Source: a virus
Virus record (IMG/VR): IMGVR_UViG_3300042894_002259
Location: 1 to 53,866 of that record
Reading direction: 5' to 3' (one strand)
DNA length: 53,866 nt
The translations under genes and the position numbers were made by a program. Each line of letters opens with the position of its first letter. Position 1 is the stretch's first letter. The notes beneath the pieces were generated by a model. That model had not been told where the DNA came from, searched no databases, and saw only the letters and a list, made by a program, of their open reading frames with translations. Of this stretch, positions 1 through 53,866 are shown piece after piece.

Positions 1-478
1 AATTCTCAATCCAATCTCTTGGTTTTGGTTTTTTAGAAGTCTTAAAGTCTATGATGGCAAGTTCTCCATCAAACTCGGCAATACAGTCAGTAGTACCGGC
101 AACACCAAGTTGTTTACTATATAGAGCTCCTTCCAGACAGTAGATATTATTAATCCTATTCAGTTCTGATTTTGCAATCTTAAAAAGAAAATCTGATATG
201 GGTTGAACCGGAGGAAGGTCTCTATTGTAAAGATAGTTCTCAACCAGGGTGTGCATATCAGTTCCACGACTGGTTGCTGCCTTGGTGATTTTATCTGCCT
301 CTTCTACACCAACTCTCTTACGCCACTTGACAAAGATTTCCTTATTAAAATGACTGGTTACCGAAGTGATGGAGACCAACTTCAGCAGTTGGTCCTCATC
401 TGGCACAGAATAATATCGGACTCCATCAATCGTTTCTCTTTCAAGTTGAGGAAGTACATTATCAAGATGATTAAACAT
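1..478 (-). CDS. PD-(D/E)XK family nuclease, C-terminus cut by window edge
   Basis: An open frame of 159 codons runs from an ATG at 478 off the left edge without a stop. The ATG overlaps the phoH stop as TAATG, so the two are translationally coupled. A motif RGTDMHTLVE near residue 72, followed by GTTDCIAEF and IDFKTSKKP, matches the RecB-like PD-(D/E)XK exonuclease fold: a helix with R-x3-MH, then the core acidic residues and the D-x-K strand. Homologues in T4-like cyanophages are annotated as putative exonucleases. The role is probably DNA processing or host DNA degradation. The fold assignment is from motifs only, and the C-terminal part is not visible. Confidence 0.75.
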   Translation of the reverse strand, partial: MFNHLDNVLPQLERETIDGVRYYSVPDEDQLLKLVSITSVTSHFNKEIFVKWRKRVGVEEADKITKAATSRGTDMHTLVENYLYNRDLPPVQPISDFLFKIAKSELNRINNIYCLEGALYSKQLGVAGTTDCIAEFDGELAIIDFKTSKKPKPRDWIEN

Positions 479-1230
479 TAAAAACCTGCTTCTAGTTTAG
501 CAATAATGTATTCTTTGACAAGTCCGGAACGAACAATATCATCTACACCAAACTCAATTATATCAAAAGATGGCATTTTACGCAATACTGTCATAAAATC
601 AACGATTCCATTACGCTCATTTGTTTTTTGAAGGTCACTCTGAGACGCATCTCCACAGAACATAATCTTTGAGTTCTCACCAACACGAGTGATAATAGAA
701 TCTAGTTCGTGATATGACATATTTTGGAACTCATCCACAATAATAATAGAATTATCAAGCGTGGTTCCTCTGAGGAATGAAGTACTCCAGAACTTAATGG
801 TTTCTTGAGACTTAAGATTGCCATAAAGCATCTCAAATTCAACATCATTTGAAAGTTGGAACATATACTTCACCATATTCTTATAAGGAATCTGGTAAAT
901 ATCCGACTTGTCATCATAAGAACCGGGAAGAAATCCAATTTCTCTTGTGGCAACTAATGACCTAACAAGATAGATTTTTTCAAAAGGTGTTTTTTCATCT
1001 AAGACTTCACGAAGAGCATTATAAAGGGTGATAAAAGTTTTACCAGTACCGGCACACCCGTAGGCAACTAAATGTTTTTGATTGGCATAAGAATCAAAAA
1101 GTTTCTTTTGATTTTCGGTAAGTGGATCAATATCTACTAGATATTCACCACTTAACGGTTTTTTACGCTTTGCTTGACGAGTAGTAAGATCAACACCGAT
1201 TGGTTGCTCTGCTCTTTTTCTTCTTGCCAT
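478..1230 (-). CDS. phoH: PhoH-like P-loop ATPase
   Basis: The 250-residue protein carries a Walker A motif (GCAGTGKT, about residue 58) and a Walker B motif (IIIVDEFQNM, about residue 160), in the order and spacing of the PhoH family. A basic N-terminal tail of about 30 residues precedes the domain. PhoH is near-universal in marine T4-like phages; its biochemical role there is unsettled (a predicted RNA-associated ATPase, or phosphate-stress-linked by name only). The stop overlaps the start of the downstream nuclease gene by one base, and the FmdB-like small gene ends 6 nt upstream, so this is a tight operon. Confidence 0.93.
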   Translation of the reverse strand: MARRKRAEQPIGVDLTTRQAKRKKPLSGEYLVDIDPLTENQKKLFDSYANQKHLVAYGCAGTGKTFITLYNALREVLDEKTPFEKIYLVRSLVATREIGFLPGSYDDKSDIYQIPYKNMVKYMFQLSNDVEFEMLYGNLKSQETIKFWSTSFLRGTTLDNSIIIVDEFQNMSYHELDSIITRVGENSKIMFCGDASQSDLQKTNERNGIVDFMTVLRKMPSFDIIEFGVDDIVRSGLVKEYIIAKLEAGF

Positions 1231-1236
1231 AAGTGT

Positions 1237-1479
1237 TTAGAGTTTTTGTACTTTTGATCCGGGCATCTTTTGGGCACGACCTAGGACATCGTTCCACGAA
1301 GGGTGCTTGGAGGTTAGTTTATTCCGCCAATCACCTACTTCACCAACATTCATTTGTGTTGGAATAAGTGGTTTGATGTGAGGATTTTCTTTGAGATATG
1401 GGTCTTTGTCCGCCATATACATCCATTTCTCAAAGATTTCACCCGTTTCCGTATTCTCAAATCTATAAGTAGGGCACAT
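1237..1479 (-). CDS. Small FmdB-like conserved phage protein
   Basis: The 80-residue product begins MCPTYRFENTETGE, which resembles the N-terminal strand of FmdB-type putative regulatory proteins. It then departs from that family: only Cys2 is present, so the usual zinc-ribbon cysteine pairs are missing. The remainder is polar, with a conserved-looking VGDWRNK segment and a basic C-terminus. It ends 6 nt before phoH, suggesting co-transcription. A late-promoter-like CCTAAATA lies 23 nt upstream of the ATG. The function is unknown; the family link rests on the first 15 residues only. Confidence 0.75.
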   Translation of the reverse strand: MCPTYRFENTETGEIFEKWMYMADKDPYLKENPHIKPLIPTQMNVGEVGDWRNKLTSKHPSWNDVLGRAQKMPGSKVQKL

Positions 1480-1515: not shown

Positions 1516-2250
1516 TTAATTTATTTTTTTTCTTTCTTCCCATCTTTTTCTATTTGCTTCACCTATTTTTCTTTTATGTTCTTCGCTCATTTTTTTACCT
1601 TTATTAGGAGATGTTCTACCTTTTGCCGTTTCTTTTAATTTTTGTTTATGTTCTTCACTTCTATTTTTTGCATATTCGCTCAGTTTTCTTCGATGTTCTT
1701 CACTGAAAGGATCCATTTTTTTACCTCTATTCCAAGAACAAGAACTATTTCCCGTATTTGCTTCACTTATTTTTTGTTTATGTTCTTCACTCATTTCTTT
1801 TCCATACATAGGATTATTTTTACCAGTCTTTGATGCACTTAATTTTTTTCTAGTTTCTTCACTACAAACTCTATTTTTACTTGCTTTACTTAATTTTTTT
1901 CTAGTTTCATCTTTACATTTTCTACCTTTACTAAGTTCTCCAATTTTTTTTCTAGTCTCCTCAGAATGTTTATATCCACACATTCCCTCACCACCATCAG
2001 TTCTATTATGAAGAATACCAGTTCCTAAATCTAGTCTACCAAAGACAGCAATCATATACTTCTCGTGCTTGAACGCTTCTTCCTCTGTTATGTTTTGTTT
2101 CAGGAAGATTATTCTGGATTTATCTTTAGGAGCATTAACCCCCTTTAATCTTTTTCTATAAACCCTATCACCATTTCCCTTACCGACATAATAAGGAGTT
2201 CTATCTTCACGCAAATAAGCATAAGTATAAAATCTGTTAAGATTTACCAT
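1516..2250 (-). CDS. GIY-YIG homing endonuclease with NUMOD3 repeats (Seg-like)
   Basis: The 244-residue protein has an N-terminal GIY-YIG nuclease domain (about residues 8-95). It shows a TYAYLRED strand, the YYVGKG turn with following Arg residues, a helix with the likely catalytic Glu in FKHEKYM, and Asn-Arg in LHNRTDGGEG. Residues 96-240 are at least five NUMOD3-type DNA-binding modules (SEETRKKI/SEEHKQK patterns), typical of free-standing Seg endonucleases of T4-like phages. It lies between thyX and the FmdB-like gene and is probably a mobile insertion. An exact TATAAATA late promoter and a nested hairpin precede it (2262-2329). Confidence 0.92.
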   Translation of the reverse strand: MVNLNRFYTYAYLREDRTPYYVGKGNGDRVYRKRLKGVNAPKDKSRIIFLKQNITEEEAFKHEKYMIAVFGRLDLGTGILHNRTDGGEGMCGYKHSEETRKKIGELSKGRKCKDETRKKLSKASKNRVCSEETRKKLSASKTGKNNPMYGKEMSEEHKQKISEANTGNSSCSWNRGKKMDPFSEEHRRKLSEYAKNRSEEHKQKLKETAKGRTSPNKGKKMSEEHKRKIGEANRKRWEERKKIN

Positions 2251-2259
2251 AACTGCTCT

Positions 2260-2337
2260 TTAGTTGACTGCATTAATATTTATAAGGGAGAAGTTTAACC
2301 TCTCCCACCTGTAGAGATTGCAGTCAACTTCAGGCAT
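2260..2337 (-). CDS. Possible 25-codon leader ORF before the GIY-YIG gene
   Basis: ATG at 2337 to TAA at 2260 encodes a 25-residue peptide (begins MPEVDCNLYRWER) that ends 9 nt before the endonuclease ATG. It has no clear Shine-Dalgarno. It lies within the nested hairpin region, so the frame may be fortuitous; if translated, ribosomes would melt the hairpin. Weakly supported. Confidence 0.2.
   Translation of the reverse strand: MPEVDCNLYRWERLNFSLININAVN
2262..2329 (-). promoter_or_regulatory. Nested inverted repeats blocking the endonuclease translation start
   Basis: A perfect 11-bp inverted repeat pairs 2262-2272 (agttgactgca) with 2319-2329. Inside it, gggaga (2286-2291) pairs with tctccc (2301-2306). 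The inner edge of the long stem abuts the Shine-Dalgarno AAGAG (2255-2260) of the GIY-YIG gene. Transcripts reading in from thyX would contain both arms. Confidence 0.7.
2277..2284 (-). promoter_or_regulatory. T4-type late promoter TATAAATA for the GIY-YIG gene
   Basis: The minus strand carries an exact TATAAATA within the loop of the nested hairpin. With T4 late spacing (motif about -13 to -6), transcription would start near 2271. That is inside the downstream arm, so the late mRNA would lack the blocking stem. Confidence 0.7.
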
Positions 2338-2340
2338 TTT

Positions 2341-2348
2341 TATTTAGG
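2341..2348 (-). promoter_or_regulatory. Late-promoter-like box CCTAAATA behind thyX
   Basis: CCTAAATA lies 6 nt after the thyX stop on the minus strand and 3 nt before the possible leader ORF. It has the same form as the boxes at 1502 and 16484. No other support. Confidence 0.3.
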
Positions 2349-2354
2349 TTTTGT

Positions 2355-3110
2355 TTAAGGTGAAAGTTTTGCTTTTCTAAGCCTCTTTTCCTCATAATAA
2401 CTGAAGATTTCAGGAACCCATTCTTTCATTACAGGAACCATTCCTTCACAGAGAGCCTGAATTTCTACCTGAGCATCCAGTTTAGCACGAAGGTCAAGAA
2501 AGTGAAGTGCGGCACGAAGAGAGAATGAAACTACAAAGTTCTGGCGGATATTCTGAGGAAGATAATCACGGAGATGTTCCTCTGCCATACCACGCTGTTC
2601 GTAACCCTCAGCATACCTCTCAGATGCTGCCAGACAGAACTTTAACTGCCTTTCGTAGTCTTCCCTAGTCCACTCATACTTGTGCCCTTTACGGTCCAGG
2701 TAGAGACCTTCTGGACGCACATAATAAACTTCTTCAGGTTTCAGTTCACCCTTGGCAACTTTAAGTACACGACGACCGGTATAACGCTGCGACTGAACAT
2801 CAAAACTTACACCAACACGATGAGTTCGTGCCTGTACGATGACATTATGAACGAATCCAACACAGTCCAGAGAAATGGCAGGGTGCTCCAGCGGTCCCCA
2901 GTGCCCTCTTTCATTTGCCAGGAGTTGTTCAATCACCCACTTACCACAGTCCTTCTCACTTGGAGGAAACTTAGTATGAATGGGGTCTTCACTATAATCA
3001 TTCTTACCTCCCTGATAAACCAGAGTTTGAGGAAGTTGTGTCTGACGAAGCATCACAACTTTCATATGTTGGTCAAGTTCAAGAAGGTCTTTTGCTTTAA
3101 TTGGTTTCAT
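2355..3110 (-). CDS. thyX: Flavin-dependent thymidylate synthase ThyX
   Basis: The 251-residue protein contains the ThyX signature R-T-H-R-V-G-V-S-F-x4-S-Q-R-Y at about residues 95-110, the nucleotide/flavin-binding RHR-x7-S motif. ThyX makes dTMP from dUMP using FADH2 and methylene-tetrahydrofolate, supplying DNA synthesis; cyanophages commonly encode it. The ATG at 3110 overlaps the stop of the preceding 54-codon gene as ATGA, which supports this start over Met16. It belongs to a run of genes served by the sigma-70-like promoter at 3440-3468. Confidence 0.95.
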   Translation of the reverse strand: MKPIKAKDLLELDQHMKVVMLRQTQLPQTLVYQGGKNDYSEDPIHTKFPPSEKDCGKWVIEQLLANERGHWGPLEHPAISLDCVGFVHNVIVQARTHRVGVSFDVQSQRYTGRRVLKVAKGELKPEEVYYVRPEGLYLDRKGHKYEWTREDYERQLKFCLAASERYAEGYEQRGMAEEHLRDYLPQNIRQNFVVSFSLRAALHFLDLRAKLDAQVEIQALCEGMVPVMKEWVPEIFSYYEEKRLRKAKLSP

Positions 3111-3439: not shown

Positions 3440-3468
3440 ATTATACAAAAAAAGAGAGGACTTGTCAA
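3440..3468 (-). promoter_or_regulatory. Consensus sigma-70 promoter (TTGACA-N17-TATAAT)
   Basis: The minus strand carries a perfect -35 TTGACA at 3463-3468, a 17-nt spacer and a perfect -10 TATAAT at 3440-3445. The -35 lies in the loop of the terminator at 3451-3478, and the terminator's T-tract forms part of the spacer. It would serve the 47- and 54-residue genes and thyX early, using host polymerase. Confidence 0.85.
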
Positions 3469-3478
3469 TCCTCTCTTT
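3451..3478 (-). terminator. Intrinsic terminator (10-bp stem plus T-tract)
   Basis: aaagagagga (3451-3460) pairs perfectly with tcctctcttt (3469-3478) around an 8-nt loop. On the minus strand the stem runs straight into a T-rich tract. It ends the transcript carrying the 28-, 32- and 44-residue genes. Confidence 0.85.
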
Positions 3479-3806: not shown

Positions 3807-3839
3807 TAGGTTTTCTCCTTAGTTTTTAGGTTAAAGAGC

Positions 3840-3939
3840 GTTCCTTCAGTCGGCGTTTGCGTTCGCTATTTGCGAATAGCGAATGAACGATCCGTTCCGC
3901 GTCGGCTTACTTCCGTCTGGATTATTCCAGATGAACGAT
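3840..3939 (-). ncRNA. Structured 5' leader made of two similar hairpin units
   Basis: Two units lie in tandem: 3901-3939 and 3849-3891. On the minus strand each begins ATCGTTCAT, has an inner hairpin (6-bp TCTGGA/TCCAGA at 3916-3931; 9-bp at 3862-3883), then a GCCGAC segment, then GGAACG. CGTTC can pair with GAACG to enclose each unit. Inner stem sequences differ while flanks are kept, as expected for structured RNA. It lies between the promoter at 3947-3975 and the DUF4278-like gene. Confidence 0.6.
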
Positions 3940-14202: not shown

Positions 14203-14894
14203 AAAAATTCTTTCCAATCAATACAGGGAGATAATAAATCTGCTTGACAGTGTGTAGAATAACCGGGAATTGAAGATATAAGAACTCTTCCCTTTTGTGC
14301 TAATTCTAAAAACTTTTGGTGGTCTGCTGATGGTTCCACTCCTGTAGAATATTTATGATGAACCGAAAAGTCCTTCATAAGAGTTGAAAACTTCACAGCA
14401 AAAGTATTTGTGGTGGAAGGAGTTGCCATCCAGTGAGATGATTTTGAGTGTAAGACCTTGGTTCTAAACTCACTATAAAACTCCATATACTTATCACCGT
14501 GGTCATAAAGAGTTACATAATCAACACCAAGTTCAAATCCTTCCATCAAAATCTTATCCCAGTTTGGACGATGAACATAATCATCTTCAAGAAAATAAAT
14601 GATATCTTCTGCTGAATGATTTTGAGTTTGAATATACTTCAAAGTCTCAATAAAACTCTTTGCTTCTCCACCAGCATTTATAATATGAACATTCTCTTCT
14701 TGTGATAGGAAAGTATCTTCTATCTTACCATAGTGTTCATCGTAAATGAGTGTATAGTTTGTGGTTTCTGGATTGAGAGTGTTCTTGAAGTTTTGAAATA
14801 CCTTTTCCTTATCCCACCATTCTGGTCTTTGTTTTCCCGGACTTTCCTGTATCTTAGAATAATAACAGTGCCTTAGATATACATTAATTTTCAT
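14199..14894 (-). CDS. Putative glycosyltransferase (GT-A-like)
   Basis: 231 residues. IIYFLEDDYVHRP (about residue 98) is a DxD-like motif after a Rossmann-type N-terminus (INVYLRHCYYS), and VDYVTLYDHGDKYM plus SSHWMATPSTTNTF resemble acceptor-side segments of GT-A enzymes. The ATG lies in an 11-nt overlap with the upstream gene, with a GGAG Shine-Dalgarno. No GT family number can be given with confidence. Confidence 0.72.
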   Translation of the reverse strand: MKINVYLRHCYYSKIQESPGKQRPEWWDKEKVFQNFKNTLNPETTNYTLIYDEHYGKIEDTFLSQEENVHIINAGGEAKSFIETLKYIQTQNHSAEDIIYFLEDDYVHRPNWDKILMEGFELGVDYVTLYDHGDKYMEFYSEFRTKVLHSKSSHWMATPSTTNTFAVKFSTLMKDFSVHHKYSTGVEPSADHQKFLELAQKGRVLISSIPGYSTHCQADLLSPCIDWKEFL

Positions 14895-15684
14895 TCAGTT
14901 TCTCCAAATCGTATTCGTTCCACCAAGACTTCCAATCAAGGAAGAAATCCTTATCCCATTCTGTTTGCATATGAAGTGCTAGTGAGGGAATAGGAGTAAA
15001 GCAATAATATCCTCTTTCATAATAGATTTTATCTATACTCTCCATTTCCATCGTTTCACTCACTTCACTTGTTCCCATTTTATAAAACAAGTCCCAGTGA
15101 AGTTTTATAATACTACTATGGGTCATCAAAGTCACTGCTGGATGAATGTTGGTTCTCCAGTAACGGTCTTTCCCAACAACAAGATTACAGGGAACAGCAG
15201 TATTTTGAGGATCGTGATACTCTGCTGGTTTATTAAATGGAAAGATACTCGCAGGTTTTCCTAGATTACAACTAAACTGATTAATAGCATCTATCATCAA
15301 CTCAACAGAGTTTTGTTGATGAAGAAAGTCATCCTGAATAAAGTAGACCCAATCTTTTCCATAATCTCTGCCGTGTTCATAGCAACGAAGTATAGAAGGC
15401 ATTATACCATAAGTTTCAAGATGGGTCAAATTAACTTTGAACTTTGCCGTATCAATCAATCTTTGAAGAATATCTAGAAACTCTTGGTCTGAATGGTCGT
15501 CAAAAATTTGGAGTTCTATTTCATAATCTGGATATTGTTCTTGAGCATAGTTAAGACTATCAATTACAGAAAAAATACATCTTGATGATACTTCTATCTT
15601 TGGTGCTTCACAATATCTTTCGTGACTATCATCTCGGTTTCCTTTTGAATGAGACTGAAGAACAACTAACAAATGAGTTTTCAT
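14884..15684 (-). CDS. Putative glycosyltransferase
   Basis: 266 residues. An N-terminal VVLQSHSKGN strand, LQIFDDHSDQEFLD, and WVYFIQDDFLHQQN (a DD motif at about residue 117) indicate a GT-A nucleotide-sugar fold. Similar proteins occur in cyanophage glycan clusters. It overlaps the sulfotransferase gene upstream by ATGA and the next glycosyltransferase by 11 nt. Donor and acceptor unknown. Confidence 0.75.
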   Translation of the reverse strand: MKTHLLVVLQSHSKGNRDDSHERYCEAPKIEVSSRCIFSVIDSLNYAQEQYPDYEIELQIFDDHSDQEFLDILQRLIDTAKFKVNLTHLETYGIMPSILRCYEHGRDYGKDWVYFIQDDFLHQQNSVELMIDAINQFSCNLGKPASIFPFNKPAEYHDPQNTAVPCNLVVGKDRYWRTNIHPAVTLMTHSSIIKLHWDLFYKMGTSEVSETMEMESIDKIYYERGYYCFTPIPSLALHMQTEWDKDFFLDWKSWWNEYDLEKLNEN

Positions 15685-50948: not shown

Positions 50949-51652
50949 CAGTACTTTTCCAAACAATATACACCGTTCTTTTCTAAGATGGCAGAACAAG
51001 TATCCACAAAATCTCCACAACACATATAAGTGATTTTGCCAAAATTGCGAATATTTGCCGAATGTATGTGTCCGCAGATTACACCAGAATATTTCTTATC
51101 TCTTTGAGCACAATAAGAAGCAATATCAGTCTCATATTGATTGATATAGTTCTTACCACGCACACTATTCTTCAAAGCATAAACCAAAGAGAAACGGAAG
51201 AACCTCTCAAAAAATAAACTGAGTGGTGTAATGAATTCATATCCTTTATTAAAGATGAGTTGTTTCCAAGACCCAGAAGAATACTCAGAATACTTATCTC
51301 CGTGAATACAAAGAAACTTATTTCCCTTTGAATCCTTGTGCGTATATTCATCAACCATCTTAAAGTTCTTGTGTTCAAAATCAGTATAACGACGAATCAT
51401 TCCTTCGTGATTTCCAAGAATATAAACAATCTCGGTTCCTTTCTTTGCGAGATTGAGAATCTGATGAACACATTCGGTGTGCTCTTTTTTCCAACGAGTA
51501 TTATATTTTTCCATACAGTAGATGTCTATAATATCACCTACCAGAACTAACTTTTTGGTTTTGAGTTCTTTCAGAAACTTGAGAAACTTTTCAGTATTAC
51601 ATCGCGGAGTTCCCAAGTGAACATCAGATATGAAGACTGTATCGTAAGTCAT
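50948..51652 (-). CDS. Metallophosphoesterase
   Basis: 234 residues with the calcineurin-like phosphoesterase motifs in order: DVHLG (residue ~10, D-x-H), GDIID (~40, GD), GNHEG (~80, GNHE), and later HGDK (~116) and GHIHSA (~196, GHxH). It resembles UDP-2,3-diacylglucosamine hydrolase (LpxH)-type enzymes, which would act on lipid A precursors, but general phosphoesterase is the safer call. It starts 2 nt after the upstream 53-residue gene's stop. Confidence 0.88.
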   Translation of the reverse strand: MTYDTVFISDVHLGTPRCNTEKFLKFLKELKTKKLVLVGDIIDIYCMEKYNTRWKKEHTECVHQILNLAKKGTEIVYILGNHEGMIRRYTDFEHKNFKMVDEYTHKDSKGNKFLCIHGDKYSEYSSGSWKQLIFNKGYEFITPLSLFFERFFRFSLVYALKNSVRGKNYINQYETDIASYCAQRDKKYSGVICGHIHSANIRNFGKITYMCCGDFVDTCSAILEKNGVYCLEKY

Positions 51653-51908: not shown

Positions 51909-52064
51909 TTATTGGTGCTTTTGTAAGTATGCAACCAAATCTTTAAGGTAGTCAGATGCTTTATCCCAATCCCCATTAAACCTATCATTAAGTTCTTGAT
52001 AAATTTTTTCTGCGTTTTCAGGTGCTAGATTGGTTGCCTCAATAAATCCTTCTTTAGTAATCAT
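51909..52064 (-). CDS. 51-residue small protein
   Basis: ATG at 52064 lies inside the end of the endonuclease gene (11-nt overlap); TAA at 51909. The product (begins MITKEGFIEATNLA) is helical, with a Trp/Asp motif (FNGDWDKASDYLKDL). Its position makes it likely to be translated with the endonuclease or from its late promoter. Function unknown. Confidence 0.65.
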   Translation of the reverse strand: MITKEGFIEATNLAPENAEKIYQELNDRFNGDWDKASDYLKDLVAYLQKHQ

Positions 52065-52668
52065 AATGTTTTAATGTTTTTTCTGTAAGGTTAATGATTT
52101 CAGTTATGGGTAATTCTACCACATAACACTCCGTATATCCACTGTCCGTGGTCTCAAAATCAATTTTATAATCTTGGTATTTTTGATGGATGAACTTTTC
52201 AAGATGATGAACTTGATAATGAATTCCTTTCCATATTTTAATTACACTATGTAATTTATTTTTGGTGTGATTTGCTAATTTATTGAAACTTCTACCAACC
52301 TTATAAACCAGTTTACCTTCAAGATAAACAATAACCAAATACAAATAATCAGTATCAAAATATCTTTCTTTCCAAGGGTTTTGACAATTATTGCCCTTTA
52401 TTTTTTCTCCATATTTTTTGACTCTTTCATCAGTTTCTTTGGTTAATCCTTTATTCCAAACTTTTTGACCTGTTTTCTTTCCTTTATTCCAAGGTTCTTT
52501 ACCTATTTGCCATTCAGAAAAGTTTCTTGTTATGCCAATTGTTTTAAGATACTTATATACAGAAACTCTTGGTATGTTTAGTTGTCTTCCAATCTCGTGG
52601 GAGGATAAACCAGACAAATACATTTGCTTCCAAATCTCCCTATCCTTATCAGTATATCTTACATTCAT
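52054..52668 (-). CDS. Homing-type endonuclease with HTH, NUMOD3 and GIY-YIG-like domains
   Basis: 204 residues from the ATG at 52668; a GTG at 52683 would add five, but the late promoter would then leave only a ~4-nt leader. The N-terminal HTH (GLSSHEIGRQLNIPRVSVYKYL) binds DNA. Then NUMOD3-like repeats (WNKGKKTGQKVWNKGL), then a GIY-YIG/T5orf172-like nuclease (YLYLVIVYLEGKLVYKVGRS, catalytic Glu in GYTECY). It lies directly behind intron-bearing psbA, the position of the free-standing endonuclease (F-CphI) reported for psbA-intron cyanophages. It may promote homing of that intron. Confidence 0.78.
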   Translation of the reverse strand: MNVRYTDKDREIWKQMYLSGLSSHEIGRQLNIPRVSVYKYLKTIGITRNFSEWQIGKEPWNKGKKTGQKVWNKGLTKETDERVKKYGEKIKGNNCQNPWKERYFDTDYLYLVIVYLEGKLVYKVGRSFNKLANHTKNKLHSVIKIWKGIHYQVHHLEKFIHQKYQDYKIDFETTDSGYTECYVVELPITEIINLTEKTLKHYDY

Positions 52669-52692
52669 TTGTGGTCTGCTCACGGATATTAT

Positions 52693-52700
52693 TATTTATA
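52693..52700 (-). promoter_or_regulatory. Late promoter TATAAATA for the psbA-linked endonuclease
   Basis: Exact T4-type TATAAATA on the minus strand, merged with the T-tract of the psbA terminator. The predicted start is near 52687, giving a ~19-nt leader before the ATG at 52668. Confidence 0.7.
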
Positions 52701-52726
52701 AAAAAAGAGACCTTTACAGGTCTCTT
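52701..52726 (-). terminator. psbA intrinsic terminator
   Basis: aagagacc (52705-52712) pairs perfectly with ggtctctt (52719-52726) around a 6-nt loop, followed on the minus strand by a run of seven T. It ends psbA transcription, 27 nt after the stop. Confidence 0.85.
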
Positions 52727-52727
52727 C

Positions 52728-53291
<564 letters not shown>

Positions 53292-53866
53292 AGCCACGAT
53301 GTTATAGGTCTCTTCTTCTTGACCGAACTTATAACCATAATTCTGCGATTCAGTTTCAGTAGTTTCACGAACCAGTGAAGAAGTCACCAGTGAACCGTGC
53401 ATCGCAGAGAACAGTGAACCACCGAAGACACCAGCAACACCAAGCATATGGAAGGGGTGCATCAGGATATTGTGTTCTGCCTGGAAGACAAGCATGTAGT
53501 TGAAGGTTCCAGAGATACCCAGAGGCATTGCATCAGAGAAAGAACCTTGACCGAAAGGATAGACCAGGAATACAGCAGAAGCAGCAGCAACAGGTGCTGA
53601 ATAAGCAACACAGATCCAAGGACGCATACCTAGACGGTAAGAGAGTTCCCATTCACGTCCCATATAAGCATAGATGCCGATGAGGAAGTGGAATACAACG
53701 AGTTGGAAAGGTCCACCGTTATAAAGCCATTCATCAAGTGAAGCAGCTTCCCAGATAGGATAGAAGTGAAGTCCGATAGCATTAGAAGAAGGAACAACGG
53801 CACCAGAGATGATGTTGTTTCCGTACATTAGAGAACCAGCAACGGGTTCACGAATGCCGTCAATGT
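53292..53866 (-). CDS. psbA: psbA exon 1 (photosystem II D1), N-terminus beyond window
   Basis: 191 codons, open to the right edge: [17 protein letters not shown], then the D1 core with [34 protein letters not shown] (His ligands of the P680 and non-haem iron sites) and [18 protein letters not shown]. It agrees with cyanobacterial D1, and about 58-60 N-terminal residues are missing off the window. The frame reads into the intron TGA directly after the exon, so splicing is needed for full-length D1. Confidence 0.96.

Follow-up and report, generated by a model that had tools for sequence, protein, structure and literature searches.

A putative timed control leader of free-standing homing endonuclease genes in T4-like cyanophages

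The homing endonuclease gene that follows thyX in a fragment of a T4-like cyanophage is preceded by an RNA leader, which we read, with a probability of about 0.8, as a timed control element of this free-standing gene that would be closed in the early RNA and open in the late RNA. The leader belongs to a large, apparently undescribed family that is common to several unrelated nucleases. In Rfam 15, no family reached its gathering threshold for the leader, and positions 2200-2400 gave chance-level scores only. A description of the leader was not found in the open literature, to which the search was confined (subscription papers were outside its scope).

The fragment (IMGVR_UViG_3300042894_002259) was analysed over its whole length of 53.9 kb, referred to here as the window, and its closest named relative in a phage collection is the T4-like cyanophage Synechococcus phage S-SRM01. 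The nuclease ORF (2250-1516) matches NUMOD3 in Pfam (E 4e-29), the homing endonuclease family PHROG 314 (E 7e-23) and, below the family cut-off, the group I intron endonuclease family TIGR01453 (E 1.5e-12). PF01541 was absent from the ORF in the Pfam search, a PDB profile search gave an E-value of 0.06, and the top Foldseek matches were UvrC GIY-YIG domains (probability 0.95-0.98, E 0.03, model pLDDT 64). The GIY-YIG catalytic domain of the protein is recognised weakly; its family is annotated as homing endonuclease. Since thyX directly adjoins a relative of the next small gene in Sf-CH5 and SynMITS9220M01, with no nuclease gene between them, the nuclease gene is, judging from these gene orders, best read as an insertion downstream of thyX. 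It is free-standing, with thyX intact and the sole intron detected in the window located at 53090-53362. A different GIY-YIG-type gene (gp023, 14565-15116) occupies the same thyX slot in S-SRM01; it lacks a hairpin leader and appears to be expressed from the promoter and leader that natively belong to the next gene. The features of the region are as follows:

478-1230, minus strand: phoH
1237-1479, minus strand: small gene
1516-2250, minus strand: GIY-YIG/NUMOD3-type homing endonuclease gene, 244 aa (NUMOD3, PHROG 314)
2248-2348, minus strand: whole class 1 leader, comprising upstream box, arm 1, inner hairpin, putative inner late promoter, arm 2, Shine-Dalgarno region and ATG (covariance model R1)
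2254-2261, minus strand: Shine-Dalgarno region AAAGAGCA, whose AG and GCA pair with CU and UGC of arm 1, with one bulged A
2262-2272, minus strand: arm 2 of the outer stem, TGCAGTCAACT
2277-2284, minus strand: putative inner late promoter TATAAATA, predicted start near 2271
2286-2306, minus strand: inner hairpin GGGAGAGGTTAAACTTCTCCC, terminator-like, sequence differing among relatives
2307-2335, minus strand: alternative small hairpin, GCCTG (2335-2331) with CAGGT (2311-2307)
2319-2329, minus strand: arm 1 of the outer stem, AGTTGACTGCA, extended on the 5' side by UGCCU (2336-2332), the pairing partner of the Shine-Dalgarno region
2341-2347, minus strand: upstream late-promoter-like box CTAAATA, just outside the stem
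2355-3110, minus strand: thyX, intact, upstream neighbour of the nuclease gene (Pfam Thy1, E 6e-34)
3440-3468, minus strand: perfect sigma-70 type promoter TTGACA-17-TATAAT (12 of 12 matches), candidate source of early read-through

A preliminary description of this DNA, made from the letters alone, had pointed to a perfect 11-bp stem with an exact late-promoter sequence inside it, and both are indeed present on the minus strand (2262-2272/2319-2329 and 2284-2277, respectively). The stem had also been said to abut the Shine-Dalgarno; the two do adjoin, but this understates the pairing. Past a 2x2 internal loop, the stem resumes as CU/AG and UGC/GCA with one bulged A and thus extends into the Shine-Dalgarno, so that AAAGAG (2261-2256) is partly paired. 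The alternative small hairpin (-5.9 kcal/mol for matched vs -2.3 for mismatched partners) uses the same bases as this Shine-Dalgarno pairing, and the two exclude each other. Absent from the preliminary description were the inner hairpin (2306-2286), which is enclosed by the outer stem, and the second late-promoter-like box (2347-2341). By itself, a perfect 11-bp inverted repeat is not unusual here, as the window holds four separate ones with arms within 80 nt, next to three occurrences of TATAAATA; weight must therefore come from comparison. What goes beyond chance is the combination together with its conservation.

With the nuclease protein as query, we obtained 79 related loci, mostly from metagenomic contigs, and most of them have the same upstream layout, with arm sequences that are quite different yet still complementary. 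Relatives from all sources together yielded 62 distinct leaders of this kind, termed class 1, in the order promoter-like box, arm 1, inner hairpin, late promoter, arm 2 with Shine-Dalgarno, and ATG. They fall into about 16 arm families, and matched arms pair with -22.4 ± 2.2 kcal/mol as compared to -7.8 ± 3.4 kcal/mol for mismatched arms. In an alignment of 39 leaders, the outer stem comprises 17 pairs including the Shine-Dalgarno region (alignment pairs 13-122 to 17-117), 92% of the cells are paired, and double changes occur at 14 of the 17 pairs; the covariation score is 0.543 vs 0.212 in shuffles (reached in 0 of 500) and at most 0.085 for slid versions. The motif ATAAATA is found in 62 of 62 aligned class 1 leaders; because the promoter motif was required in collecting the first set, its invariance there is not evidence alone. 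The inner box and arm 2 are so spaced that transcription starting 5-6 nt below the box would set in where arm 2 begins. In 40 of 42 distinct leaders, another TAAATA box is found 62-76 nt upstream of the inner one. The gene before the leader appears to end on a stop codon contributed by this upstream box in 31 of the 62 leaders, and five of these cases agree with annotated gene ends in S-SRM01 and Synechococcus phage B23.

The covariance model R1 matches the window once, at 2248..2348 (75.8 bits, E 8e-12), where the leader was itself among the training sequences (identical to L002). Matches were found in 25 of 30 virus records, most of which are the same records that supplied the loci, with one in the window, six in S-SRM01 and two in B23. 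Phage S-B68, whose host is Synechococcus WH 7803, also has a class 1 leader, flanked by the DNA polymerase gene and the gene that precedes uvsX.

Since the first loci had come mostly through one protein family, a second, blind scan of viral contigs was run with the 17-mer CTTTTCTTGTATAAATA, which covers the terminator tail and promoter only and is blind to both stem and protein; some of the contigs overlap the first locus set. Among the matches listed, 92 distinct leaders had an open frame below; the outer stem was present in 89 of these and the upstream box in 88. The three leaders without a stem precede genes unlike nucleases. Genes behind class 1 leaders fall into at least six nuclease groups, which were built from the first 85 residues and, where a family match was missing, named by motifs seen by eye. 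All six leader copies of S-SRM01 precede genes with a nuclease annotation, family match or similarity, including HNH/NUMOD3, endonuclease VII-like, GIY-YIG-type and other homing types; gp091 is without a family match and resembles the group represented by B23 gp294. The layout, the pairing, its covariation and the presence of the leader before several nuclease types can be read directly from these sequences. From this comparison we conclude that the earlier reading is raised from plausible to strongly supported.

Several annotations are touched by the leader. The GIY-YIG-type gene gp114 of S-SRM01 (NC_070963.1) is annotated as 'translation initiation factor 2', as is B23 gp45. Since the annotated starts of S-SRM01 gp075 and gp297 fall inside the leader, the true starts are probably its final ATG, near 51348 and 192520, respectively. 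Leaders or leader-like matches without a long open frame behind them (L201, L210, L228 and L046, the last at 2981-3086, minus strand) probably mark the remains of nuclease genes that have decayed.

Two of the original loci carry a different leader, termed class 2 (L016, L023 and L262-L348), of which a pattern scan found 52 distinct cases. Its layout is GGGCAGCAA, arm 1 in the loop and TTGCGTAAGTCCC, nearly always followed by [AC]TAAATA, arm 2 and ATG, and the downstream frames encode mostly the same nuclease types as in class 1. Matched arms pair with -24.5 ± 3.8 kcal/mol vs -9.1 ± 3.7 kcal/mol for mismatched arms (48 cases with a usable start). Two different folds therefore share the logic of a promoter between two arms.

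The minus-strand region 2360-2230 (131 nt) folds with -38.8 kcal/mol as compared to -20.0 ± 3.1 kcal/mol for shuffled sequences (z = -6.1; as good in 0 of 200), and the predicted late RNA is unfolded in the leader region. For the 62 class 1 leaders, the late RNA was taken to start 5 nt after the inner box; the computed unpaired fraction of the Shine-Dalgarno then averages 0.20 in the long and 0.64 in the late RNA, and exposure is higher in the late RNA in 62 of 62 cases. When the upstream half was exchanged for that of another leader, exposure in the long RNA rose to 0.51. The AUG is on average equally exposed in both RNAs (0.45, computed). For the window leader, computed exposure changes from 0.30 to 0.65 with a start at 2271 and just from 0.31 to 0.37 with a start one base before it, i.e. 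the computed change depends on the exact transcription start. By computation and covariation, the ribosome site would be paired in the long RNA, and it would become accessible in the late one.

By motif and position, boxes of the TAAATA type resemble genuine late promoters: the coding strand of the window has 21 copies of [AC]TAAATA, often 13-26 nt above start codons, the other strand has 0, and a late promoter of the sequence NATAAATA has been described in cyanophage S-PM2 (PMC2984593). A T4-type start 6 nt below the inner box would lie at about 2271, one base into arm 2, which agrees in position with the start proposed in the preliminary description. The sigma-70 type promoter at 3468-3440 could feed early read-through across thyX. 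Its -35 element lies inside a 12-pair terminator-like hairpin that is followed by T-rich sequence (3440-3478, minus strand).

We infer from this arrangement that the inner box is active as a late promoter, that transcription is terminated by the inner hairpin and that the leader times nuclease synthesis. RNA entering from thyX would carry both arms, and some of this RNA may end at the inner hairpin. RNA passing this hairpin would fold, and the early message would yield little nuclease because its Shine-Dalgarno is paired. After the late switch, RNA polymerase would start at TATAAATA in the loop, near 2271; the resulting RNA would be without arm 1 and its ribosome site open, such that the nuclease would be made late. 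The proposal that read-through RNA hides the ribosome site and that the late RNA lacks the upstream arm, which had already been put forward in the preliminary description, is thus supported by covariation, the independent sample and the computed exposure.

The upstream box, if active late, would give a late RNA that still has arm 1, and the closed/open model neither needs nor explains it. With an active upstream box and a terminating inner hairpin, a short RNA of about 60 nt with arm 1 would arise, comprising a small 5' hairpin that shows arm 1 and then the inner terminator, which could pair in trans with arm 2 and would provide each nuclease with its own antisense regulator. We consider this unlikely: arms are alike in 10% of the comparisons within genomes vs 13% between genomes, i.e. 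there is no signal of the avoidance of equal arms within genomes that trans action would lead one to expect, class 2 leaders mostly lack the box (present in 14 of 52, mostly as GTAAATA), and the T-tracts of class 1 are often weak. The low number in class 2 also ruled out the box as a general feature of that class. A reading of the box as a target-site duplication was rejected as not general, because TAAATA follows the nuclease gene at the thyX site of the window and at few other sites, where sigma-70-like promoters are often found instead.

It is improbable that the leader acts chiefly on transcription, with the inner hairpin as a terminator that shields the nuclease gene from upstream reading and the outer stem in a secondary role, e.g. 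in RNA stability or processing. Class 1 leaders do contain an inner hairpin (mean of -15.8 kcal/mol over the 45 nt preceding the promoter), and T-rich tails are found in many of them, e.g. CCTTTTCTTGT, and after the conserved hairpin of 42 of the 52 class 2 leaders. However, the best 8-nt window has at least 5 T in only 31 of the 62 class 1 leaders, the inner hairpin of the window failed the terminator scan, and insulation alone would not select for an outer stem that covaries through the Shine-Dalgarno. We find it very improbable that the inverted repeat is a DNA site, either an operator or a copy of the homing site, to which the endonuclease would bind at the promoter of its own gene. I-TevI does repress its own late promoter from a homing-site-like operator (PMC2988022), and the arms flank a promoter here as well; against this, one leader serves unrelated nuclease families, for which reason the arms were rejected as nuclease binding sites, and the G-U pairs (52 of about 1050, 45 of them with G in arm 1 and U in arm 2) are not favoured by a DNA repeat. 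Repression by the nuclease at a DNA site could coexist with RNA control. That a chance stem merely lies beside an ordinary thyX terminator and a late promoter hardly deserves credence: the four perfect repeats in the window and the three stemless terminator-plus-promoter sites among the 17-mer matches listed speak for it, but covariation and the independent sample refute it.

The timed control leader proposed here had been said to mirror that of T4 I-TevI, in which the read-through RNA is closed and the late RNA lacks the upstream arm (PMC2988022, PMC3014915). The closed/open logic is the same, but the promoter lies in the loop here and in the 5' arm of the T4 hairpin. As with I-TevI, and also I-TevII and I-TevIII, a homing endonuclease is encoded downstream, the Shine-Dalgarno is paired in the long RNA and, by sequence and position, a late promoter would give a transcript without the 5' arm. 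I-TevI differs in that it is encoded in a group I intron and has one short hairpin with the promoter in its 5' arm, as checked in the T4 sequence, whereas the cyanophage gene is free-standing and its promoter lies in a 46-nt loop beside a terminator-like hairpin and next to arm 2, with an extra upstream box outside the stem and a competing small alternative hairpin. In T4, the stretch containing I-TevI, I-TevIII and mobE gave no R1 match. The promoter in the loop, the terminator-like hairpin, the upstream box, the alternative hairpin and this lack of a match set the leader apart from the T4 kind; it would work like the I-TevI leader, and the likeness is one of mechanism rather than of demonstrated homology to the I-TevI RNA family.

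Early-closed and late-open control has also been shown or implicated for mobE and segB (PMC2988022, PMC3014915). The leaders of Aeh1 mobE and T4 segB, which are set beside the cyanophage leader here by their description, likewise belong to free-standing homing endonucleases and have an RNA structure that hides the ribosome site and a similar promoter arrangement (PMC2988022), but they were described as single cases. Aeromonas phage 25 seg43 has a stable hairpin with its base directly before the ribosome site (PMC2988022), which is described as not sequestered, whereas the cyanophage stem extends into the site and covaries there. The lysozyme gene e of T4 also has a closed long early RNA and an open late RNA, with the late promoter TATAAATA in the region encoding the 5' strand (PMC3014915), but it is not a homing endonuclease gene and its geometry is another one.

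Further elements were observed elsewhere in the window. At 52054-53866 (minus strand), a psbA-like gene is split by a group I intron (RF00028, 53090-53362) and followed by a free-standing endonuclease-like gene (52054-52668/52683, PHROG 681). This resembles the arrangement of a psbA intron and a separate homing endonuclease reported for cyanophages (Zeng et al. 2009, as cited by PMC3037559 and PMC10448857). The PHROG 681 gene is preceded by a terminator-like hairpin and TATAAATA (52700), where R1 was without a match. At 3835-3939 (minus strand) there are two glutamine-riboswitch-like aptamers in tandem (RF01739, 33.1 and 26.9 bits; gathering threshold 35), and S-CREM1 and S-PM2 share parts of this region at 94-96% identity.

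So far, homing endonucleases with a timed hairpin leader had been described one by one, in T4 and a few relatives. Here, such leaders appear as a family whose distinct members, from cyanophages and related viral contigs, number well over 100 and which have been swapped among at least six nuclease types and are joined by a second class with the same logic and a different fold. A large, swapped family together with a second class argues that the restriction of nucleases to late infection is under steady selection. The R1 covariance model can be used to find misannotated homing genes and to assign their correct starts. With its six copies, the cultured phage S-SRM01 would make the long-standing question of why the nuclease is delayed testable in a new host system.
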